A DNA stretch of 64,000 bases from positions 3,156,001 to 3,220,000 of the forward strand of contig CP033464.1 in the NCBI GenBank assembly GCA_007833815.1. The letters are read 5' to 3'. Shown piece after piece: positions 6,345-38,093 of the stretch; positions within the stretch are counted from its first letter, which is position 1; each line of letters starts with the position of its first letter. Source of the DNA: Brevibacillus laterosporus. GTDB taxonomy: Bacteria; Bacillota; Bacilli; Brevibacillales; Brevibacillaceae. The position numbers were made by a program, and so were the translations under genes. The notes below the pieces were generated by a model. It was not told the DNA's origin and did not search any database. It saw only the letters and a program-made list of their open reading frames with translations.

Positions 6345-6624
6345 ATTCACGCTCCTAACAGCCTTTTCTATTGTTATTATGACACAGCTTCCCTTATTCG
6401 AATACAAAAGAAGCACATTAATGAGCGCGTAACCCTTTTCAATTTAGCAAAAGAAGAGTATGCTTTGGCTGTAGGAAAAGTTTAGTGAGAAGAGAGAATT
6501 TCCGCTTTTTCTAGAAAGTTTTTATAAATAAGGAAAAAGCAGAATTTTTGCTTCTCTTTCAGGAATTGAGCGTGTATACTGAACGATGGATTTACCGAAC
6601 ATAACTTTTTGAGGTGATTATACA

Positions 6625-7914
6625 ATGGGGAATCACGAAATGGTAACCAACAACACTGAGACTGCGCAACAAAAAGAAAGCTTGAATCTTTTAGCTTCGA
6701 CGCAGACGGTGATTAAGGAAGCGCTTGAAAAGCTAGGTTACCAAGAGTCGATGTACGAACTGTTAAAGGAGCCTTTGCGAGTCCTGACTGTTCGCATCCC
6801 AGTTCGCATGGACAATGGCGATACAAAAGTGTTCACAGGATATCGTGCTCAACACAATGATGCTGTTGGTCCAACAAAGGGCGGAATACGTTTCCATCCT
6901 GATGTTACAGAGGATGAAGTGAAAGCGCTTTCTATATGGATGAGCTTGAAGGCGGGAATTGTTGATTTACCTTATGGTGGAGGAAAAGGTGGGATTATTT
7001 GTGATCCACGCGAAATGTCCTTCCCGGAATTGGAGCGTCTAAGCCGTGGTTATGTACGTGCTGTGAGTCAATTAGTTGGACCAACTAAAGACATTCCGGC
7101 TCCAGATGTATTTACCAATTCACAAATCATGGCATGGATGATGGATGAGTATAGCCGCATTCGTGAGTTTGACTCTCCGGGGTTCATTACGGGTAAACCT
7201 ATCTCGTTAGGTGGCTCACATGGTCGTGAAACAGCTACAGCAAAAGGGGTAACCATCTGCATTCGTGAAGCAGCGCAGAAGCTAGGCATCAATCTTGTAG
7301 GTGCTCGTGTGGTTGTACAAGGGTTTGGTAATGCAGGAAGCTATTTATCCAAATTTATGCATGACGCTGGTGCTAAAGTGGTAGGTATCTCTGATGCTTA
7401 CGGCGCTCTATACGATCCAAATGGTTTGGATATTGATTATTTATTAGATCGTCGCGATTCCTTTGGTACTGTGACAAAATTGTTTACCAACACCATTTCC
7501 AATCAAGAATTATTGGAATTGGATTGCGATATTCTCGTTCCTGCTGCGATCGAAAACCAAATCACAGCTGAGAATGCTCACAGCATTAAAGCTCCTATTG
7601 TCGTAGAAGCGGCCAATGGACCAACCACACTAGAAGCTACCAAAATCTTGACAGAGCGTGGCATTCTATTGGTGCCTGACGTACTGGCTAGCTCTGGTGG
7701 TGTAACGGTATCGTACTTTGAGTGGGTACAAAACAACCAAGGTTACTATTGGACAGAAGAAGAAGTTGAAGAGAAACTAGAACGCGTGATGGTACGTTCG
7801 TTTGAGAACGTCTACCAAACTTCTCAAACACGTCGTGTAAATATGCGTCTAGCTGCTTACATGGTGGGAGCCCGTAAAATGGCGGAAGCATCTCGTTTCC
7901 GTGGATGGGTATAA
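6625..7914 (+). CDS. gudB: NAD-specific glutamate dehydrogenase
   Basis: This 429-residue hexameric glutamate dehydrogenase converts glutamate to 2-oxoglutarate and ammonium. Substrate-binding motifs are KGGIRFHPDV and the catalytic-lysine loop PYGGGKGGI; the Rossmann domain has GFGNAGSY near residue 235. Length and start match RocG/GudB. The gene sits between bshB2 and ansA and ends in a strong terminator, so it is monocistronic. There is no sign of the insertion that inactivates laboratory B. subtilis gudB. Confidence 0.94.
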   Translation: MGNHEMVTNNTETAQQKESLNLLASTQTVIKEALEKLGYQESMYELLKEPLRVLTVRIPVRMDNGDTKVFTGYRAQHNDAVGPTKGGIRFHPDVTEDEVKALSIWMSLKAGIVDLPYGGGKGGIICDPREMSFPELERLSRGYVRAVSQLVGPTKDIPAPDVFTNSQIMAWMMDEYSRIREFDSPGFITGKPISLGGSHGRETATAKGVTICIREAAQKLGINLVGARVVVQGFGNAGSYLSKFMHDAGAKVVGISDAYGALYDPNGLDIDYLLDRRDSFGTVTKLFTNTISNQELLELDCDILVPAAIENQITAENAHSIKAPIVVEAANGPTTLEATKILTERGILLVPDVLASSGGVTVSYFEWVQNNQGYYWTEEEVEEKLERVMVRSFENVYQTSQTRRVNMRLAAYMVGARKMAEASRFRGWV

Positions 7915-30662: not shown

Positions 30663-31217
30663 TTGGCCGTACTAGGAGCAACTTCTATAATTATATTTTT
30701 TATTGCTATAGTCGTCGTTATAAATCCAAAGTGGTTATCAAGGGGAAAATTTAATCTCACTAGAAAGCACGGTCTACTGGTTTTATTGTTATCATTCACG
30801 AGCTTCGTGTGCGCGGTTGCCTCAGACAAACCAACGGATACTATCTCGACAACAAGTAGTGTACAGAACGAGGAGCAACCGAAAATACAAATTGATGATA
30901 AGCTGATACAGAGGGCGACTGAATATGTAAAAAGCGGAGATTATGTAAAAGATGCCGCGATTGCAGTTGAGGGGCCCAGAGCTAGCCTAGTAGTGACAGT
31001 TGATTACGCAGTTAATAAAGAGACTGCTAAAAACATTGCAGATAATTTCGTGCGTACCCTCGGATCAGAGGCAGGTGGTAAATCGCCAACCAGGGATTAC
31101 TACGGAGAAGTTTACGATTATTATGATATTTTAGTTACAGTCATAACGCCTGATGGAAAAGAAGTATTACTAGGCGCAAAGGTTACTTCTGCTTCGAACA
31201 TCAGATGGAATAGCTAG
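30663..31217 (+). CDS. Hypothetical two-helix membrane protein
   Basis: The 184-residue protein has two N-terminal hydrophobic segments (about 4-20 and 38-55), a Ser/Thr linker, and a C-terminal alpha/beta domain (YVKSGDYVKDAAIAVEG onward). It begins at TTG with AGGAGGAA upstream and has its own terminator. Lying just right of the integrase, it is likely a lysogeny-module accessory gene. Function unknown. Confidence 0.62.
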   Translation: MAVLGATSIIIFFIAIVVVINPKWLSRGKFNLTRKHGLLVLLLSFTSFVCAVASDKPTDTISTTSSVQNEEQPKIQIDDKLIQRATEYVKSGDYVKDAAIAVEGPRASLVVTVDYAVNKETAKNIADNFVRTLGSEAGGKSPTRDYYGEVYDYYDILVTVITPDGKEVLLGAKVTSASNIRWNS

Positions 31218-31252
31218 GGGAAGGTTTCTGACTCCCTAGCTATTTTTTTTTT
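31208..31252 (+). terminator. Intrinsic terminator
   Basis: AGCTAGGGG and CCCTAGCT flank a loop and are followed by a long T run. Confidence 0.88.
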
Positions 31253-31447
31253 TGAAAAAGTGTGCCACGGATACTTCGGGCGTCGGAGTATTGCATGAAG
31301 GAGAAAATTTATCGTGAAATGTCCCAATTTCAACGATCCCATTGCCCTATTAATAGTAAAGGCAAAATTATTTCTCCCGAAAGTGTGCGAACTTGTTGTC
31401 GCGTACGATTAAATAAGTAATTACCTAAATCGGAGGTGATCCCGTAA

Positions 31448-31868
31448 ATGTCCGTATCAGCCGAACAAAATCTCGTATCAGTCGAAACGCAATCCGAATA
31501 CTCCGTAACCAACGGCCGCCGAGAAACGCGCATCTTCCTTAAAATGTACGTCGACGCCGTCCACTCTGGTTTGCTCGCAGACATTGGCGACGAGAACTGG
31601 CGCACACTCTGCGTAATAGCCGCCTTCATGAACGAACGAGGCGAGTGCTACCCGACGCAAGAGATGATCGCGCATAGACTCGGTGTCAAACGGGAAACGG
31701 CGAATAGGCGAATCAACCGCCTGCTGAAATATCGATGGGATGGGCGGGAGGTGGTACGCGCGTCAAAAGTTAGGGGCGGCGCGATGGGAAGTGGCAGAAT
31801 ACGCGTTATACGGTGCTTCCGATAAGCCATTTAGCGATATTCAACGGGGCTACGTGATGCGCATGTAA
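31448..31868 (+). pseudogene. Helix-turn-helix (HTH_36-type) phage protein, probably frameshifted
   Basis: The open frame (31448-31825, 125 residues) has a winged-helix region (GECYPTQEMIAHRLGVKRET) as in replication-initiation-type phage proteins. After about 31795 a different frame continues more plausibly (EYALYGASDKPFSDIQ) to a stop at 31868. I infer a one-base shift near 31785-31797, less surely than for the integrase. GC-rich relative to the host. Confidence 0.55.
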
Positions 31869-32077
31869 CATGGTTAAGCATCACATGGCACGAACGTCAC
31901 ACTAACAAGAACTAATCTTTAACAAGAAAAAGATAGCGCTCATTCGGATACAAGGATCCTCTACCGCGCGGTCATTATTAGATAAGAGATAACAATGTAG
32001 AAGACTTGCAACGCGACCTAGATATATACATACATGAGGACCGTTGAAGATTATTCGAAGAAGAAAGGAGAATTAAT

Positions 32078-32590
32078 GTGGAGATTCAAAGTAAAGAGTC
32101 CGCGTCAACTCTCTCAAACGACATCACCATTCTCACCGCGGAAATCAATTCCTATAAACAAATAGCTGGACAGGCAATCTTTGAAATTGGACTGAGATTA
32201 AAGAAAGTAAAAGAAGAGAAACTTTCTGAGATATGGGGTGGTTGGACAAAATACTGTGACGATATCATTAAGGTTCCTGTCCGCCATGCAAATAAATTTA
32301 TCTTGATTGAGGAAAGGTTGGGAGAAAAATGGTCGACGTCGACCACAATCGGATTCGAAGTTCTTTACCAGCTCGCAACGCTATCACCAGAAGAACGTGA
32401 GCGCCCGCACACAATTCCGTCCACAGGCGAGACCAAGTCCGTAGATGAAATGACCGTCCGTGAACTCCGCGAAGTCAAACGGGCACTCAGGGCGGAAAAG
32501 GAATCGCGCGAACTAGCGGAGCGTCAGCGGGATGAGGCGTTGGAATCGGCACAAAGGCAACATCTATCCCGTCATGGGGAGGCGGTGTGA
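32078..32590 (+). CDS. DUF3102 domain phage protein
   Basis: This 170-residue protein has the DUF3102 pattern (ITAEINSYKQ..IFEIGLRLKKVKE..GWTKYCDDIIKV) and a charged, coiled-coil C terminus (VKRALRAEKESRELAERQRDE). The family is common in phages and integrative elements; it may act with DNA replication or partition, but this is unproven. GTG start after AAGGAG. Confidence 0.7.
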   Translation: MEIQSKESASTLSNDITILTAEINSYKQIAGQAIFEIGLRLKKVKEEKLSEIWGGWTKYCDDIIKVPVRHANKFILIEERLGEKWSTSTTIGFEVLYQLATLSPEERERPHTIPSTGETKSVDEMTVRELREVKRALRAEKESRELAERQRDEALESAQRQHLSRHGEAV

Positions 32591-32727
32591 TTGTTGCTAG
32601 TTGTGGTGAGAGGGCGGACGCTCATTTCATTGCCGAAGCTCGTGACGGATGGCCTCACGCTATTGATATAGCATGCGTATTTGATGGATGGAACTACGGT
32701 GAAATAACAATTGAGGAGGCGGCTTGA
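32587..32727 (+). CDS. Small acidic phage protein, 46 residues
   Basis: The GTG start overlaps the DUF3102 stop (GTGTGA) and the stop overlaps the next start (TGATG), so the three genes are stacked. No family is recognised. The tight overlaps on both sides support that it is real. Confidence 0.55.
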   Translation: MIVASCGERADAHFIAEARDGWPHAIDIACVFDGWNYGEITIEEAA

Positions 32728-33182
32728 TGATCGGACTAACTCGCGCAGAACGCATACTTGATATCCGCACACGGATCGACAATCATATCGCGGATCACGG
32801 AGACCGACCATCGGCGGATTGCTTAGCTGTTTGGGCGGACGTCATATTGCGAGAGGAATTAACGGATATGAACCCGGATAAGATGACAAATACGGAGTAC
32901 CCGTTTATGAGTGAGCGCCAATTTCAACGAAGGCACTCGAAAGAGGCGGGGCTTGTAGGATTTTCAGATATATGCGGAACGGATCGTAGGAACCATCGGA
33001 AGCCAACAAGAAGGAATCGTACTGGCTATGAGCTAGGATTCGTGGATATAAACGCTAAGTTACGGAACCTGGATAAACAACGACAATATAACGCATTTAA
33101 ACGAGGGACATACCGTTATGATGGCGGAGATTTACGTTACTTAGATTACGGAGGGAAAACGTACAAAAATGCGGCAATCTAG
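32727..33182 (+). CDS. Hypothetical phage protein
   Basis: This 151-residue hydrophilic protein is rich in Arg and Asp. The ATG at 32727 overlaps the preceding stop; GAGGAGGCGG lies 8 nt upstream. No domain is recognised. Part of the early gene cluster. Confidence 0.55.
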   Translation: MIGLTRAERILDIRTRIDNHIADHGDRPSADCLAVWADVILREELTDMNPDKMTNTEYPFMSERQFQRRHSKEAGLVGFSDICGTDRRNHRKPTRRNRTGYELGFVDINAKLRNLDKQRQYNAFKRGTYRYDGGDLRYLDYGGKTYKNAAI

Positions 33183-33220
33183 CGCCTTCTGAGCAACTAG
33201 ACGGCTATAGAGTTGAAAAG

Positions 33221-33421
33221 TCAGTGAAGTTCGAGTACATCTGTAATCCCAACGCCTAGCACTTCGCATATTTTCGCAAGGTTATCGAGCTGTAGGCGTT
33301 GCGTTTCATTCTTGCACATGCCGTTTATGGTCGCGAATCGGATGTTAGTCATGCGGGAGAACTCCCGTTGAGTGATCCTACGTTCTTTTAAGATAGCGTC
33401 GAGTTTTAGTCGGATTTGCAA
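33221..33421 (-). CDS. XRE-family helix-turn-helix regulator (Cro/CI-like)
   Basis: The 66-residue protein is almost entirely an HTH_3 domain (ILKERRITQREFSRMTNIRFATINGMCKNE..LAKICEVLGVGITDVLEL). The TTG at 33421 is 8 nt from GGAGG and gives the family length; a longer frame reaches 33493 but lacks a ribosome site. It is transcribed against its neighbours, as a lysogeny repressor would be, and is the only repressor candidate in the prophage. Confidence 0.8.
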   Translation of the reverse strand: MQIRLKLDAILKERRITQREFSRMTNIRFATINGMCKNETQRLQLDNLAKICEVLGVGITDVLELH

Positions 33422-33446
33422 CGCGAACACCTCCGGAGGACGGGTA

Positions 33447-33722
33447 ATGGTGGAGGTCGTGCTACTGGTGACCGCGCTGATAAAACTTGGCAACTGCGGT
33501 AGTCAACTATCGCAATGGCAGGCGAAACGGCGACGGTTGGAGCCTAAAGTAAAGACCCCTTACGTTCGTGGCGTAAGAGGTCGGTCAACAAACGGGTTTG
33601 GGAGCCTTACGGTTCCCTGCCCTCACCATTATCTTATTCCAATCATACCCTCGATATACTCGATAGTCAAAGGAGGACAGGCGTCCTCTTTCGACTCACG
33701 GAAGGAGGTAGCCAATGAGTAG
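33447..33722 (+). CDS. Small basic protein with N-terminal hydrophobic segment
   Basis: A 91-residue frame starts at ATG 33447, 6 nt after GGAGG, divergently from the repressor. The first 15 residues are hydrophobic and followed by QAKRRR. A strong hairpin (GACCCCTTACG / CGTAAGAGGTC) lies inside the frame at 33551-33579, which argues that the true product could be shorter or the frame not coding beyond that point. Confidence 0.4.
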   Translation: MVEVVLLVTALIKLGNCGSQLSQWQAKRRRLEPKVKTPYVRGVRGRSTNGFGSLTVPCPHHYLIPIIPSIYSIVKGGQASSFDSRKEVANE

Positions 33723-33885
33723 CTTTGAGGTTAACTACTCAGTTTTTGGAGTTGCCCGATATGACAGCAAAGTACACGTACGCGCTGAGAATGAGAGCGC
33801 AGCACACGACAATGCCTTAAAGGTACTGAGCGGATGCGTTACGGAAGGCCAGTTAATATCCATCGTCTTGGTTCATCGAGAGTAA
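33715..33885 (+). CDS. 56-residue phage protein
   Basis: The frame has a strong GGAAGGAGG 6 nt before ATG. The product (start MSSFEVNYSVFGVARY) looks like a small beta-rich single-domain protein. It is the first gene of the run of micro-genes that leads to the Asp-Pro-Gly array. This gene is missing from the degenerate copy at 27.6 kb. Confidence 0.6.
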   Translation: MSSFEVNYSVFGVARYDSKVHVRAENESAAHDNALKVLSGCVTEGQLISIVLVHRE

Positions 33886-33902
33886 AGAAGGGTGGAGGAA
33901 CC

Positions 33903-33989
33903 GTGGAAACTATTACATTGGTAATCGCGGTGGTAGCGCTGGTTATCTCGATCGCCGCGTTGGTACAAGCCGTGAAAAAACGCAAGTAG
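33903..33989 (+). CDS. 28-residue single-pass membrane micro-protein
   Basis: GTG start after GTGGAGG. The peptide begins METITLVIAVVALVISIAAL and ends VKKRK: one hydrophobic helix with a positive tail, typical of small phage membrane peptides. The degenerate copy at 27617 retains most of this frame but with one extra base. Supported by the conservation between copies and by the ribosome site. Confidence 0.65.
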   Translation: METITLVIAVVALVISIAALVQAVKKRK

Positions 33990-34017
33990 TCGTCGGATAA
34001 CCGGCGGCTTTTTGTAT
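33988..34017 (+). terminator. Terminator-like hairpin upstream of the micro-gene array
   Basis: GTCGTCGG ATAA CCGGCGGC followed by TTTTT. It is conserved in the degenerate copy at 27.7 kb. It may attenuate transcription into the array. Confidence 0.75.
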
Positions 34018-34072
34018 CTGGAAGGATTTTGAAATCTTCTTGTCGAAAGGTGTAGGCAAGGAGGTGGATAAG

Positions 34073-34165
34073 GTGAAAACATATAAACACAGTGTAGATC
34101 CGGATTGGGACGCAGGCCCTCGTTGGAAAACGGCTCCTGAATGGACCGGCGACTCCGGCCATTAG
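34073..34165 (+). CDS. Array micro-gene 1 (30 residues)
   Basis: GTG start after AAGGAGGTGG. The peptide holds three tryptophans and ends PEWTGDSGH. This is the longest and most divergent member: it ends Ser-Gly-His instead of Pro-Gly-His but keeps the Pro-Glu-Trp core seen in later members, and has an extra VDPDWD segment. Confidence 0.65.
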   Translation: MKTYKHSVDPDWDAGPRWKTAPEWTGDSGH

Positions 34166-34184
34166 TATAAGGAGGTTACGCGAC

Positions 34185-34223
34185 ATGACTAATCCAGAAT
34201 GGCATGACGATCCCGGCCACTAA
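34185..34223 (+). CDS. Array micro-gene 2 (12 residues)
   Basis: Encodes MTNPEWHDDPGH, 9 nt after AAGGAGG. This is the basic 12-residue form: Met-x-x-Pro-acid-Trp-x-x-Asp-Pro-Gly-His. Confidence 0.7.
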   Translation: MTNPEWHDDPGH

Positions 34224-34240
34224 TCAAAGGAGGTTATCCT

Positions 34241-34297
34241 ATGACGGAACCAGATTGGATTTTAGACCCCGGTTGGTACGCAGACCCCGGGTATTAA
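34241..34297 (+). CDS. Array micro-gene 3 (18 residues)
   Basis: Encodes MTEPDWILDPGWYADPGY with AAAGGAGG upstream. The Asp-Pro-Gly unit occurs twice, as if the second half had been duplicated inside the gene. Confidence 0.7.
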   Translation: MTEPDWILDPGWYADPGY

Positions 34298-34314
34298 ACA
34301 AGGGAGGAACCGAT

Positions 34315-34386
34315 ATGATTTACGATAAGAGTTGGCACGATGATCCTAACGGTATAATTGATTGGGTACTTGATCCCGGACACTGA
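34315..34386 (+). CDS. Array micro-gene 4 (23 residues)
   Basis: Starts MIYDKSWHDDPNG and ends DWVLDPGH; GGGAGGAA upstream. It belongs to a MIYD subtype shared with micro-gene 6, with an inner Asp-Asp-Pro and the terminal Asp-Pro-Gly-His. Confidence 0.7.
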   Translation: MIYDKSWHDDPNGIIDWVLDPGH

Positions 34387-34405
34387 TAAAAGGAGTGTAC
34401 ACGGC

Positions 34406-34444
34406 ATGATTGAACCAGAATGGCGTGATGATCCCGGATACTAA
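34406..34444 (+). CDS. Array micro-gene 5 (12 residues)
   Basis: Encodes MIEPEWRDDPGY, with AAAGGAG upstream. Basic 12-residue form with terminal tyrosine. Confidence 0.7.
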   Translation: MIEPEWRDDPGY

Positions 34445-34463
34445 AACGAAGGGGGAACCGCGA

Positions 34464-34523
34464 TTGATCTACGATACAAATTGGTGCGACGATCCTAGAG
34501 GTTTTATTGACCCCGGATACTAA
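34464..34523 (+). CDS. Array micro-gene 6 (19 residues)
   Basis: Encodes MIYDTNWCDDPRGFIDPGY from a TTG start, with AAGGGGGAA upstream. Second member of the MIYD subtype; contains a cysteine. Confidence 0.65.
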   Translation: MIYDTNWCDDPRGFIDPGY

Positions 34524-34542
34524 TTAAAGGAGGCTACGGAGT

Positions 34543-34620
34543 ATGACCGAACCAGAATGGGCAGTACAACGTAATTGCAATACGGGCGATCCGGGCTATG
34601 TCGACGATCCCGGTCACTAA
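34543..34620 (+). CDS. Array micro-gene 7 (25 residues)
   Basis: Starts MTEPEWAVQ, has an internal GDPGYVDDPGH end and AAAGGAGG upstream. As in micro-gene 3 the terminal unit is doubled, here GDPGY then DDPGH. Confidence 0.7.
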   Translation: MTEPEWAVQRNCNTGDPGYVDDPGH

Positions 34621-34637
34621 GTGAAGGAGTGTGCGTT

Positions 34638-34676
34638 ATGGCAGAACCAAATTGGACGGACAATCCCGGACATTAA
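34638..34676 (+). CDS. Array micro-gene 8 (12 residues)
   Basis: Encodes MAEPNWTDNPGH, with GAAGGAG upstream. The Asp before Pro is replaced by Asn. Confidence 0.7.
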   Translation: MAEPNWTDNPGH

Positions 34677-34695
34677 TACAAGGAGTGTAAACGGC

Positions 34696-34734
34696 ATGGC
34701 AGAATCAGATTGGGACTATGACCCCGGATATTAA
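34696..34734 (+). CDS. Array micro-gene 9 (12 residues)
   Basis: Encodes MAESDWDYDPGY, with CAAGGAG upstream. Ser replaces the first Pro; the Trp and terminal Asp-Pro-Gly-Tyr are kept. Last member of the array. Confidence 0.7.
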   Translation: MAESDWDYDPGY

Positions 34735-34877
34735 TCGTATCAAAGACCAACCGAGTCTGCGGACTTGGCTGGCGCTGGTACTCCGACCTTTCGGGCTACG
34801 AGCGCTAGAATATTCGGATTTGACGAGGAATGCACCGCCTTTATGTCGAAAGTAATAGGACAAGAGGAGGTGTTTAT
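34735..34877 (+). other. Spacer after the array
   Basis: No micro-gene of the array type is found here. An imperfect stem-loop (CCAACCGAGTC / GACTTGGCTGG) at 34749-34773 may end or process the array transcript. Confidence 0.4.
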
Positions 34878-34985
34878 ATGTTCGATCTACTGCGTCCGTC
34901 AATTAACAACATAGTACTTGTATTAACAATGATCCCAGTTGCGTTATTTGCGTTTAAAGTTGCTTTAGACTGGGTAAGTGAGTAG
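34878..34985 (+). CDS. 35-residue single-pass membrane micro-protein
   Basis: The frame has GAGGAGGTG 7 nt before ATG. The peptide has one hydrophobic helix (IVLVLTMIPVALFAFKVAL) preceded by MFDLLRPS. With the 28-residue membrane peptide at 33903 it brackets the Asp-Pro-Gly array. Confidence 0.6.
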   Translation: MFDLLRPSINNIVLVLTMIPVALFAFKVALDWVSE

Positions 34986-35056
34986 TTCGAAGGGATATTT
35001 TAATTACGAGTCGCCATTTATGGCTGCTTTTTCTATTTTAAGGGAGGCGACGTGAT

Positions 35057-35113
35057 ATGGCGGAAGTACCTCCAGACATAATACCTCGATTGAAAGCTTC
35101 TATTTTCATTTAA
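35057..35113 (+). CDS. Micro-ORF or truncated gene (18 residues)
   Basis: Encodes MAEVPPDIIPRLKASIFI after GGGAGGCG. It stops a few bases before an IS3 transposase remnant, so it is probably the 5' stump of a longer phage gene cut by that insertion. Confidence 0.4.
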   Translation: MAEVPPDIIPRLKASIFI

Positions 35114-35130
35114 AAACAAAAGCTCTATAG

Positions 35131-35279
35131 CCCTATGAGATACGAGATATACAAGATGCTAAAAGAAGAATTGAGGATTACATTCATTTTTACAATCAAG
35201 AATGTCTTCAAATGAATTAAAAAAACTGACGACTAATGAATTTAGGCGTCAGCTATGGGCCTATCGGCCGGGGAGTTAA
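35131..35279 (+). pseudogene. IS3-family transposase OrfB, C-terminal remnant
   Basis: The first frame gives RRIEDYIHFYNQECLQM, the end of an IS3-group DDE transposase; after a one-base shift near 35217 a second frame gives LKKLTTNEFRRQLWAYRPGS to a stop at 35279. Only about 45 codons remain. Confidence 0.75.
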
Positions 35280-35530
35280 CTGTATTCTAGCAATTACGAA
35301 CTCAAAAGATAACTTTACTATTACTTATATTTTTTATGTGCCTGAACACCCAAGAAAAGAAGCCCGATATTAATTAAATAAAATATGCTTTCGGTTTCTA
35401 TTAGATAATGATTTCCTTCTAAACTACTCAAAAAAATATACAGATAAGAATTAATAGTAAAGATCATCAAACATAGCACGAATATAAGTATCTTCAAAAA
35501 CTTACCCCCAGAAAAAATTTAAAGAGTTTA
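35280..35530. other. AT-rich spacer downstream of the secreted-protein gene
   Basis: No gene or clear structure is seen. Base composition is AT-rich like the adjacent minus-strand cargo gene and unlike the phage genes. Confidence 0.4.
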
Positions 35531-36622
35531 TTAATTAGTAGTAAGTCTTAATCTGTCGTCTTTATAGAAATATTTCACATTATATTTATGTTTCAAGTCA
35601 GCCTCGTTTGAACCAGTACTAAAACTCAGCCAAAATTCATCCCATACCTGGAGGTTAACGGAATTCCAATCAGTACCTTTATCAATGTATGCTCCTTGTG
35701 AGAATTGAAACCCTTTCTGGAAGGTAACATAGTCATAGGGATACATTGTCCATACAGCGTGATTATTTGACATGGAGAATTCATGTTTTAGAGTCAAAGG
35801 TGTAATGAAATCGGCTGACAAAGTTATATATTTATTAATAGCAATAGACATACCACTTTCTCCTTTCAAATTCTGAGGCTGTGGTTTATGCATCAGTCCA
35901 TCATATCTAGCTATCCATTGAGTTTTGAATGTCCATGGTTTAATTCTGTTATTCCCACTAGTAGGGCCCAAATACTCATGATCAGCTTGCATGTAAGTAT
36001 AGACATTTGAACCTGAACGCGGGGCTTCATATACTCTAAATATAGTCAACCAATAAGAATCATTAGTAGACCACGCATGATTCACTTTAAGTGCTGAAGC
36101 TTTTGGTTCATAGGTTCCCATAGCAAACGGGACTAGACTATTAGGGGAATTATTCGTCTTCTTCTTCGTCTTCTCTTTAGCATAATAACTATCTAAAGTA
36201 GCTTCAATTACTTTTTCAATACTATCTTGTTTATTCATATTTTTCGGCATTATCGTATCAATTGAACTTATGATATAAACGGGTATTTCTTTATCTCCAT
36301 CTTGAATTAATCCGTACGCATCAATCTTAGAAGTAGGTTTTCCATCGTCGTTTAAAGAAGAAGACTTTTCATCTGATTTAAAAGATTGAAACTTCTCCAT
36401 TTCCTCATCTTCATTACTATAATAACTGTCTATAGTTTCCAATGGAACTAGTTCAGTATCCACGAACGCAACACCATTCTTTTTTAAAGCTCTTTCAAAA
36501 TCTTTTTTTGTAGTATGTAACTCATATTCACTATTCTCTGCATGGACAACCACGTTAGGAGAAAAGACAGAACTAAAAATAACACTTGACAAACCTAAAG
36601 TAATCAAAAAACACTTTTTCAA
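35531..36622 (-). CDS. Secreted protein of unknown function
   Basis: This 363-residue protein has a strong signal peptide (hydrophobic core residues 5-22, cleavage near VHA). The N-terminal third is acidic and lysine-rich, followed by a Thr/Ser/Asn linker and a C-terminal domain rich in Trp and Tyr (NHAWSTNDSYWLTIFRVYE onward) that looks like a beta-rich extracellular fold. It is AT-rich, encoded against the phage genes and flanked by transposase fragments, so it is foreign cargo. The family is not recognised; toxin-like or adhesive roles are only guesses. Confidence 0.7.
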   Translation of the reverse strand: MKKCFLITLGLSSVIFSSVFSPNVVVHAENSEYELHTTKKDFERALKKNGVAFVDTELVPLETIDSYYSNEDEEMEKFQSFKSDEKSSSLNDDGKPTSKIDAYGLIQDGDKEIPVYIISSIDTIMPKNMNKQDSIEKVIEATLDSYYAKEKTKKKTNNSPNSLVPFAMGTYEPKASALKVNHAWSTNDSYWLTIFRVYEAPRSGSNVYTYMQADHEYLGPTSGNNRIKPWTFKTQWIARYDGLMHKPQPQNLKGESGMSIAINKYITLSADFITPLTLKHEFSMSNNHAVWTMYPYDYVTFQKGFQFSQGAYIDKGTDWNSVNLQVWDEFWLSFSTGSNEADLKHKYNVKYFYKDDRLRLTTN

Positions 36623-36759
36623 AAAAAAAACACCCTTTCTTTCAATTATTTATCAAAGATTTAATCTATGTCTACCCACCAAGAGTTCAATTAGGTAGTA
36701 ACTTTATTTAAACAGCTAATTGGATTTGAGTCAATTATTGGAAACAAAAAAGATAAGTA

Positions 36760-36840
36760 CTAGGATGCTTTCCTCCGCAAATCTTCCACTTCTTGAGGTG
36801 TTTTGTAGCCTAGGCTGCCATGTATTCGGGTTCGTCTTTC
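36760..36840 (-). pseudogene. IS3-family transposase C-terminal remnant
   Basis: On the minus strand the frame reads RTRIHGSLGYKTPQEVEDL and stops at 36760, the typical end of an IS3-family OrfB. It differs from the remnant at 35131, so two different IS3 elements bracket the cargo gene. Confidence 0.75.
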
Positions 36841-36844
36841 CGCG

Positions 36845-36979
36845 GACATTATTGGAGGAGTACGCGAGTCACAGTGGCGGGGGCTAGACGATGAGGTTAA
36901 GGCATTCGCGATCGAGGAACGGGAAGAAGTGCGAAAGGTACACGACGGTTTTAAACGTAGATTAAACGAGAGCTTCTGA
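36845..36979 (+). pseudogene. 3' end of a truncated phage gene
   Basis: An open frame of 44 codons (VRESQWRGLDDEVKAFAIEE... ending LNESF) runs from the IS fragment to 36979 with phage-like GC-rich codons. Its 5' part is missing, cut by the insertion. A terminator follows. Confidence 0.55.
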
Positions 36980-37008
36980 CGAGTGCCTTCCGTCGGGAGC
37001 TTTATTAT
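36970..37008 (+). terminator. Intrinsic terminator
   Basis: AGCTTCTGACG and CGTCGGGAGCT pair (two G-T pairs), followed by TTTATT. Confidence 0.7.
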
Positions 37009-37045
37009 AGTTTACGTACACTAAATGCGGTCGAGGGACGGCGTC

Positions 37046-37246
37046 ATGAGCCGTTCTTACTGCGTATCGCTCCACGCATTCGGCCGCAGATTTACCTTAT
37101 GGGAGCGTAAATATAACGGATTGGGAAGCGATAGGATGAGGGTAGTTTTTGACTGGCGTAATCTTCTATTATGGGGAATTAGCTTCGGTTCGACGACGAT
37201 GATCTGTTGCGGACCGTTTACAATATTTCGAGGTGATCGCGCATGA
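37046..37246 (+). CDS. Hypothetical phage protein
   Basis: A 66-residue frame with a hydrophobic C-terminal half (LLLWGISFGSTTMICC) whose TGA overlaps the next ATG. The start at 37046 lacks a strong ribosome site. Coding is uncertain. Confidence 0.4.
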   Translation: MSRSYCVSLHAFGRRFTLWERKYNGLGSDRMRVVFDWRNLLLWGISFGSTTMICCGPFTIFRGDRA

Positions 37247-38093
37247 GCAACGTACTAGAACGTACATACCATCCCGAGACGGGTGAAATCGGTACGTTTA
37301 TACCGGACGGGTCTCGCGTAACTATACAAACGGATGCCCAACGGGAAGCAACCCGTCAGCATTTCGAACGCGAACGAATGAGGTTGGTTTATCGCGGCTT
37401 AAATTGGGTCGCGTGTTATCACGAAGCCATACTCGGAATCATACGAGATTTAACGTTAATAGAGGCGGGAGCGCTTATCAAGTTGCTTCCGTTTTTGCGT
37501 TTTAAGAGCGAGGGAAAGCTCGTACAAGACGGCAGGCCTTTAAAGCAGACGGATATTGCGCGTGGCTCGGACGGGGAAAAACGCAGACGACCGACATACT
37601 TAGGCGTCTAGAGGCGCTTGGCGTTATTTCGTGCGAGAAGGAAGGGCGCAGTAACGTGTATTACATTAGCGTCGATTTCCATTCGATGGGCGGCGTTCTG
37701 ACTGGCGCATCCTTTACGAAAATATACCAAGTGAAGGCGCGTGAGATTGCGGAGGAGCTGACGCTTAGTGAGATCGGATTGCTATACAAGATACTTCCGT
37801 TCTTCCACTACCAGACGTACTATCTCTGCGACAATCCAGACGAGGTGAATCCGGAGGTTATTCGGCACTTGAACCGTGAGCAACTCGCAGAAAAGATCGG
37901 ACACGATCCGCAGACGGTTTCGGAATTGGTCGGGAAACTACGGAGTAAGGGCGTACTCATGACGACGGGAAGCCGGAACACAACGCACTATCTCGTACAC
38001 CCAGACGTGATGTTTCGGAAGGAATACGAGGATGAATATACGAGGGTCGTACGGAGAATGTTCGAGGAGCACCGGAGGAAGTCGTTTCAGTAA
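37243..38093 (+). pseudogene. Winged-helix DNA-binding phage protein, frameshifted
   Basis: The first frame (37243-37611) ends in QTDIARGSDG; the other frame continues GRGKTQTTDILRRLEALG and runs to 38093. One base appears lost near 37567. The restored protein of about 283 residues has two related halves, LTLIEAGALIKLLPFLRF and LTLSEIGLLYKILPFFHY, each followed by a winged-helix segment (RPLKQTDIAR, LNREQLAEKIG). It could be a replication initiator or regulator. Strong GAGGTGATC upstream. Confidence 0.75.

Follow-up and report, generated by a model that had tools for sequence, protein, structure and literature searches.

Micro-ORF arrays of Brevibacillus prophages as candidate leaderless mimics of host AloP-type pheromones

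What might a prophage gain from a row of genes so short that the longest has 30 codons? The question is raised by a 662-bp array of nine successive micro-ORFs (34073–34734) in the window, by which we mean the whole 64-kb stretch of Brevibacillus laterosporus DNA analysed here (G000:C4:3156001–3220000). Genes resembling phage integrase, DNA-binding and terminase families mark a prophage region within it.

A conserved array of micro-ORFs in phages of Brevibacillus

The original prediction described nine frames, each led by a Shine–Dalgarno (SD) sequence and ending in Gly-His or Gly-Tyr, and all nine were present as described in position, length and terminal residues (Table 1). An SD core ends approximately 6–10 nt ahead of each start codon, which is ATG in seven of the nine micro-ORFs, GTG at 34073 and TTG at 34464; an alternative start at TTG 34040 is possible for micro-ORF 1. 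The encoded peptides (12–30 aa) are acidic and, as judged from sequence, lack a hydrophobic stretch. Pro precedes the terminal GH or GY in eight of them, while micro-ORF 1 has Ser (DSGH). The formula M-x-x-P-x-W-x-x-x-P-G-[HY], proposed for four members, exists but fits only three (34185, 34406 and 34638); micro-ORF 9 (34696) is a fourth near-formula member, departing at the first Pro.

Table 1. Features of the array and its surroundings in the window (hyphens within peptides separate blocks)
Feature	Position	Strand	Description
Small predicted membrane peptide ORF (METITLVIAVVALVISIAALVQAVKKRK)	33903..33989	+	Upstream of array, read by eye
Terminator-like hairpin	33988..34009	+	Between membrane peptide ORF and array
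Micro-ORF 1	34073..34165	+	GTG start; MKTYKHSVDPDW-DAGPRW-KTAPEW-TGDSGH; 30 codons
Micro-ORF 2	34185..34223	+	MTNPEW-HDDPGH; 12 codons; HDDPGH is a host pheromone tail
Micro-ORF 3	34241..34297	+	MTEPDW-ILDPGW-YADPGY; 18 codons; TEPDW, LDPGW and ADPGY are host pheromone pentamers
Micro-ORF 4	34315..34386	+	MIYDKSW-HDDPNG-IIDW-VLDPGH; 23 codons
Micro-ORF 5	34406..34444	+	MIEPEW-RDDPGY; 12 codons
Micro-ORF 6	34464..34523	+	TTG start; MIYDTNW-CDDPRG-FIDPGY; 19 codons
Micro-ORF 7	34543..34620	+	MTEPEW-AVQRNCNTGDPGY-VDDPGH; 25 codons
Micro-ORF 8	34638..34676	+	MAEPNW-TDNPGH; 12 codons; TDNPGH is a host pheromone tail
Micro-ORF 9	34696..34734	+	MAESDW-DYDPGY; 12 codons; DYDPGY is a host pheromone tail
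Conserved, apparently non-coding stretch with predicted fold	34743..34878	+	After array
Small predicted membrane peptide ORF (MFDLL...)	34878..34985	+	Variable gene behind array
363-aa protein, signal-peptide-like start	35531-36622	-	Downstream of array; no match in Pfam search

Motif GAYCCNGGNYAYTRA, allowing up to one mismatch, matched 11 times in the window, eight of these inside the array, compared with a mean of 0.65 and a largest count of 3 in shuffles. A search of both strands of the 64 kb, limited to SD-led frames no longer than 60 aa that either end in this way or contain a W..DPG motif, returned 11 rows, all in the array (two being longer start choices of micro-ORFs 1 and 6), and none outside it on either strand.

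Relatives of the array were sought as the original prediction had proposed, and 12 more were found (13 in total). The genus of the window accounts for six and Brevibacillus phage Emery for one; the other five come from IMG/VR contigs (L036, L053, L071, L086 and L090, with one source number common to L036 and L090). Two of the six (L008 and L353) were detected by pattern search in the same genome as the window (G000), and the other four (L354, L356, L358 and L359) are distributed over three other species. Emery, the sole phage record matched by DNA similarity, carries seven micro-ORFs where the annotation has only the hypothetical CDSs gp37 and gp38, on the opposite strand. Preservation differs between loci: L354 and L358 are decayed arrays with in-frame stops, L353 and L359 each include one frameshifted member, and L355 and L357/L449 represent more diverged or broken forms.

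All arrays of known host lie within this genus. A pattern search of 40 genomes of the family matched none of the 34 outside the genus, and a search of the class matched 13 of 399 genomes, four in the genus (3, 3, 4 and 8 matches) and nine others with one match each. A collection scan revealed arrays in five of 87 viral stretches, the remaining matches being mostly chance; no array was seen among the 117 genome stretches listed or, with a second pattern, among the 120 viral stretches listed, and array DNA found no match in a plasmid collection. Viral contig L275 has three tandem frames for Trp-rich proteins of ~75 aa with an MTEPDW start; it was considered as a relative, and no sign of relation was seen. 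The three arrays on contig G000:C4 (at about 3009478, 3040067 and 3190073) lie in prophages or remnants and span ~181 kb.

Comparison of synonymous and non-synonymous change among the arrays gave a pooled in-frame pN/pS of 0.29 (seven ortholog groups, 45 rows, 42 unique sequences; the first, length-variable member and unaligned members left out), with single groups ranging from 0.22 to 0.38. The wrong frames returned 0.98 and 1.00 (codon pairs containing a stop skipped). Substitutions follow codon position, and because pN/pS is low in the true frame only, the micro-ORFs are real and under purifying selection at the peptide level, as had been claimed from the window.

The better preserved loci (L356, L359, L071 and L086, with the window, L008, L036 and L053 conforming in part) display a common gene order, in which families were named from one or two members per cluster. 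Replication genes are followed by genes for a sigma-region-4 protein (phrog_3512) and a phrog_13088 protein and then by a Cro/C1-type HTH gene in opposite orientation. Next come the small membrane peptide, a hairpin resembling a terminator, the array itself and, for nine of the 13 arrays, the conserved stretch with its predicted fold; one gene that varies between phages, a winged-HTH protein (phrog_9501) and the terminase complete the order. The array of Emery is positioned between lysis genes and the integrase. Except in Emery, the membrane peptide ORF, intact or degraded, and a similar hairpin precede every other array, although the terminator-like sites of the region (2 found, shuffle mean 2.1) are weak evidence alone.

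The conserved stretch accompanies nine of the 13 arrays (window, L007 at about 6600–6745, L008, L036, L053, L071, L090, L354 and L358). Its pairs covary by eye (CCGAGTC/GACTTGG versus CCGCGTC/GACGTGG), and it has an additional GCGCT...AGCGC stem; three of the nine segments submitted to fold prediction began too far upstream, and the fold falls in the common end. An Rfam search of positions 31000–38000 gave no hit in the conserved stretch of the window and a single match, below the family cut-off, at 33343–33372 (minus strand, E value 0.17). The gene behind this stretch varies (window, L036, L071, L008 and L090), encoding membrane peptides or small soluble proteins in a manner reminiscent of a cassette slot. 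Relatives of the 363-aa protein occur as a 365-aa protein in L053 and as 89-aa pieces in L354 and L358.

Host pheromones and AloR-type receptors

The DPG[H/Y]-stop DNA motif GAYSCNGGNYAYTAR matched 20 times in the host genome, 13 times in its three arrays and seven times elsewhere. All seven non-array matches are the last codons of frames of ~45–57 residues with Lys/Arg and then a hydrophobic stretch at the N-terminus (e.g. ...IKQYHDDPGY, ...IIQYVYDPGH and ...ISPYDYDPGY), and each of these precursors follows a frame for a predicted HTH-TPR receptor at a distance of 0 to a few tens of bases (five intact; L370 and L372 interrupted). This precursor-behind-receptor layout is the RRNPP signalling architecture, of AloR-AloP type. 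AloR-AloP signalling is reported from Paenibacillaceae, Brevibacillus among them; the signals, six residues long in some cases, are re-imported and then act on cytosolic HTH-TPR regulators, and one AloP reduces a spo0E-like gene 4.5-fold (PMC7425212). For B. laterosporus LMG 15441, RRNPP_detector reports a plasmid-borne AloR-AloP system (PMC10075063), and we found a receptor of the AloR family on a 32,617-base plasmid of this strain; contig G003:C2 likewise carries a receptor locus (L421).

The receptors display an N-terminal HTH_3 domain (E value 2.1e-9), and TPR models score below their cut-offs. A profile of 17 receptors searched against the PDB returned HTH chains and weak TPR chains; the 60 of 83 matches listed include no named RRNPP receptor. 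One receptor query yielded 25, 8, 7, 16, 20 and 9 matches (fragments included) in genomes G000 to G005; the four array-bearing genomes account for the counts of 25, 20, 16 and 9 and the two without arrays for 8 and 7, a weak trend at n=6.

A precursor was recognised behind 26 of 30 receptors and in 26 of 33 receptor stretches (that of L428 not counted). We read 46 precursors, trimming N-termini by eye to the likely start, omitting near-duplicates with the same tail (e.g. L403, L422 and L426) and excluding that of L428 and one ending in SFPEW. Thirty-seven end in G[HYFW], six in P[QL]G and three in PDW, giving 33 distinct tails. Similar tails (..YDPGH, ..VVDPGH, ..HDDPGH and ..FDPGW) occur in other genera of the family, in which 11 of the 23 stretches read contained a recognisable precursor. 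A second class comprises receptors 25–34 % identical to the query, whose precursors end in STAPDW (two genomes), ITEPDW, TAEPDW or YSFPEW.

Frames with the Spo0E-like S-x-x-L-D pattern lie behind seven distinct host receptor loci (62 stretches examined, duplicates included) and also behind the receptors of two Brevibacillus phages. Sundance (L532) carries an AloR gene, a precursor annotated as a hypothetical protein and ending in VYTDNPGY, and an annotated Spo0E-like gene; SecTim467 (L533) carries an AloR gene with an annotated Spo0E-like gene close behind. Brevibacillus phage Jenst has an AloR fragment.

Phage peptides compared with host pheromone tails

The phage peptides parse into blocks ending in W, Y, H, F or PxG (12 = 6 + 6; 18 = 6 + 6 + 6), which explains why members of 12 and 18 codons occur and why certain members had been described as doubled. 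Six-residue blocks make up 123 of the 187 parsed under a cutting rule of our own, applied without a null. Blocks of one type, xx[DN]PG[H/Y/F/W] or xxDNPQG-like, are identical or very similar to first-class host hexapeptide tails; the other type (xx[EA]P[DE]W, SFPEW) resembles pheromones of the second receptor subfamily, with the start Met filling the first position (M-TEPDW versus host I-TEPDW). Among the host pheromones found, DAGPRW, AVQRNCN, DGGIGW and MIYD have no counterpart. The usual last member of an array ends in GGIGW, and six GIGW ends were detected in G000: two in arrays, three in short frames and one in a host protein (L503, ending in DWGGIGW) that we take to be MogA-like; no pheromone with this end was found in that genome. 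The acidic D-P-aromatic end also prompted us to consider mimicry of SSB tails, an idea rejected on reading nine of the twelve host SSB tails, which end in DDDLPF or DEDLPF.

Among the 64 unique phage peptides, 13 of the 33 distinct host hexapeptides recur without any change (DYDPGY, HDDPGH, HDDPGY, HYDPGH, LDDAGH, NADPGH, TDNPGH, TDNPGY, TDNPQG, TGDPGH, VDNPQG, VVDPGY and VYDPGH), and 29 of 33 lie within one mismatch, 16 of them at a distance of one. Left out of the list of micro-ORFs used in this comparison were frames starting MTWLIQ..., MIEWLTPD... or MTWLAL..., those located behind arrays and the L353 member with a frameshift; one Emery frame without Trp, read by eye, was included. A column-permuted null gave a mean of 3.1 exact matches and a maximum of 10 in 5000 trials, and shuffling within hexamers left, on average, 0.07 exact matches and 0.95 near ones. 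Windows moved 1–12 residues upstream in the host precursors found no exact match in the phage peptides. Sharing ends at hexapeptide length, with none of 34 heptamers common to host and phage.

Stricter nulls brought the expectation close to the observed 13: permuting the first two residues as a unit against the rest gave a mean of 9.5 (P 0.047), and a three-residue unit gave a mean of 10.1 (P 0.10). Targeting receptor by receptor is thus less well supported than a common motif, and the 33 host tails are not independent, many pheromones having the motif in common by descent. The arrays appear to span the pheromone code space rather than demonstrably to track each pheromone. The resident genome G000 has two of its 15 tails matched exactly in its own three arrays and eight in all arrays, and the array of the window alone matches three of the 33.

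Exact hexamers occur 24 times in the phage peptides, 15 times at the C-terminus and nine times internally. The same hexamers differ between host and phage DNA by at least 2–5 changes per 18 nt (at least 41 of 234 in total), all synonymous, and the likeness therefore does not stem from recent DNA copying. When the set was widened to include YSFPEW, tails of the family and those of Sundance, matches were found for 15 of 40 hexamers and for 21 of 30 pentamers; among the nine pentamers left over is VDPGH, which is frequent in host tails. Phage peptides contain all four second-class pentamers (TAPDW, TEPDW, AEPDW and SFPEW), as pentamers and never as full hexamers.

Proposed leaderless pheromone mimicry and its alternatives

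These identities make it probable, in our judgement, that the array encodes leaderless, multivalent mimics of host AloP-type pheromones, directed at AloR receptors of the host and of rival phages and most likely acting as agonists. The original suggestion of decoys, short linear motifs aimed at a protein of the host or of a rival, came close, but left the motif unrecognised as the C-terminal hexapeptide of host AloP-type precursors; its idea of subunits of a multi-peptide product applies loosely, since each ORF holds several signal-like blocks, but fits no closer than that.

Host pheromones of the AloP type are secreted, cut and re-imported before they reach their cytosolic receptor. The nine peptides of the window lack the secretion signal of AloP and other RRNPP pro-pheromones, having no hydrophobic stretch, and phage peptides without a signal peptide would arise in the same compartment as the receptors; the C-terminal signal sequence of 5–10 residues typical of such pro-pheromones is present, as the hexapeptide matches indicate. 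We infer expression, trimming, binding, agonism, delivery and benefit of the phage peptides. Transcription of the array from the early/late junction of the phage genome, with multiple ribosome entries, would yield a set of peptides. Trimming of these by host peptidases may then occur at the block ends, most of which are an aromatic residue or His. The released hexapeptides would load many AloR paralogues simultaneously, mimicking a dense population, and AloR-controlled genes (spo0E-like and others) would be shifted to the advantage of the phage. We are evenly divided over a bolder proposal, that the virus uses the whole quorum-sensing language of its host, switching dozens of paralogous AloR regulators regardless of density with receptor-less chains of hexapeptides copied from different host pheromones, whose intracellular synthesis would bypass export, maturation and import, and that arrays gain, lose and reshuffle members to track host and rival-phage repertoires.

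A different delivery of the same peptides, which we regard as possible, though doubtful, and which is compatible with intracellular mimicry, is that they accumulate during lytic growth, are freed at lysis, cut by extracellular proteases and imported by the oligopeptide permease of neighbours, signalling to uninfected cells. The residue preceding the exact hexamers is W in 20 of 24 phage cases and Y in 26 of 46 host precursors, and phage and host forms could therefore share cleavage after an aromatic residue; the location of the array in the better preserved loci, with replication genes on one side and terminase on the other, also suits this route. B. laterosporus lysates obtained with an Emery/Abouo stock and with Fawkes are described as antimicrobial, and UV-killed or mechanically lysed cells as not (PMC6315864). 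This activity fits induced host signalling, but it is not linked to the array or to any single phage. We think it unlikely that the peptides are instead antagonists that occupy AloR without triggering it and so silence communication of the host or of rival phages. The 16 host tails one residue away from a phage block would suit such decoys, as would the AloR genes of Sundance and SecTim467, given that the Sundance precursor end TDNPGY is itself a block in the arrays; for a receptor ligand, however, the 13 exact copies would argue for agonism.

The two remaining readings dispense with a receptor. Strong SDs, a Trp codon in every micro-ORF and the G-[HY] end, mostly P-G-[HY], are reminiscent of stalling, drop-off or sequestering minigenes similar to TnaC or lambda bar, as the original prediction had considered. 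We found no support for such a translation-level device and regard it as highly improbable: the same hexapeptides end secreted-looking host precursors of 40–50 aa adjoining receptor genes, the motif also lies internally, away from the stop, in nine of the 24 exact cases, and the gene behind the arrays varies, whereas a TnaC-type arrest leader has a fixed regulated gene directly behind it. We give next to no credence to non-coding or relic repeats, that is, duplicated DNA selected as RNA or DNA with incidental frames. CCCGG is often conserved in nucleotides and two arrays are decayed, but the codon-position pattern, a pN/pS that is low in frame only and the synonymous recoding of identical hexapeptides speak against it.

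Arbitrium (AimR-AimP) of Bacillus phages consists of one secreted peptide and its own receptor and controls lysogeny; the arrays resemble it as a phage-encoded RRNPP peptide signal and differ in being receptor-less and in resembling signals of the host. Phages with their own peptide signalling are known (arbitrium, Rap-Phr), and we know of none with a battery of bare copies of host signals. The phage Rap-Phr systems of phi3T and phi105 also consist of pheromone genes carried by phages, each encoding more than one hexapeptide; their tandem hexapeptides are reported to function after proteolysis and longer forms are weaker binders, and they are secreted Phr propeptides encoded beside their own Rap receptor (PMC11343458). 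Since hexapeptides bind better than longer forms, untrimmed phage peptides may bind poorly.

The likeness to AloR-AloP extends from the C-terminal hexapeptides of pro-pheromones behind AloR-type genes, six residues being a published AloP size, to the Spo0E-like genes behind host, Sundance and SecTim467 receptors, as behind some Alo loci in the published description; SHGRGG, an AloP example given there, is unlike the phage blocks in sequence (PMC7425212). The phage version departs from it in lacking a signal peptide and, in the loci searched, a neighbouring receptor, and in comprising many short genes with several blocks each. Leaderless ultra-short peptides of the SIP-RopB type can serve RRNPP receptors and are described as secreted signals with their own receptor (PMC10518010). 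The phage ORFs are similarly ultra-short and leaderless, and sequence identity hints at a possible RRNPP ligand role; they differ in forming receptor-less sets of up to nine ORFs whose concatenated blocks resemble the signals of other systems. Among the open-access papers searched, we found no report of such an array; as far as we have seen, the building blocks are known and the arrangement is new.

If the mimic reading is true, it describes a viral strategy against social behaviour in which many private signals are forged simultaneously, and would explain why a phage retains an array of 12-codon genes that the deposited annotation of Emery misses. The arrays would also provide a natural library of pheromone variants for probing the specificity of dozens of paralogous receptors, and the reading offers a testable idea for the published phage-induced antimicrobial production in B. 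laterosporus.

Neither receptor query matched in the 3.0–3.22 Mb region of G000:C4, home of its three arrays, or close to the arrays of G003, G004 and G005, and no AloR was found in phage Emery. AloR-type queries likewise detected no receptor partner near these arrays of the kind that leaderless communication peptides have. The single exception is L449 (G004:C1:4163300–4165800), a diverged and decayed array located directly before a broken AloR gene, and this arrangement hints at a former link between array and AloR.
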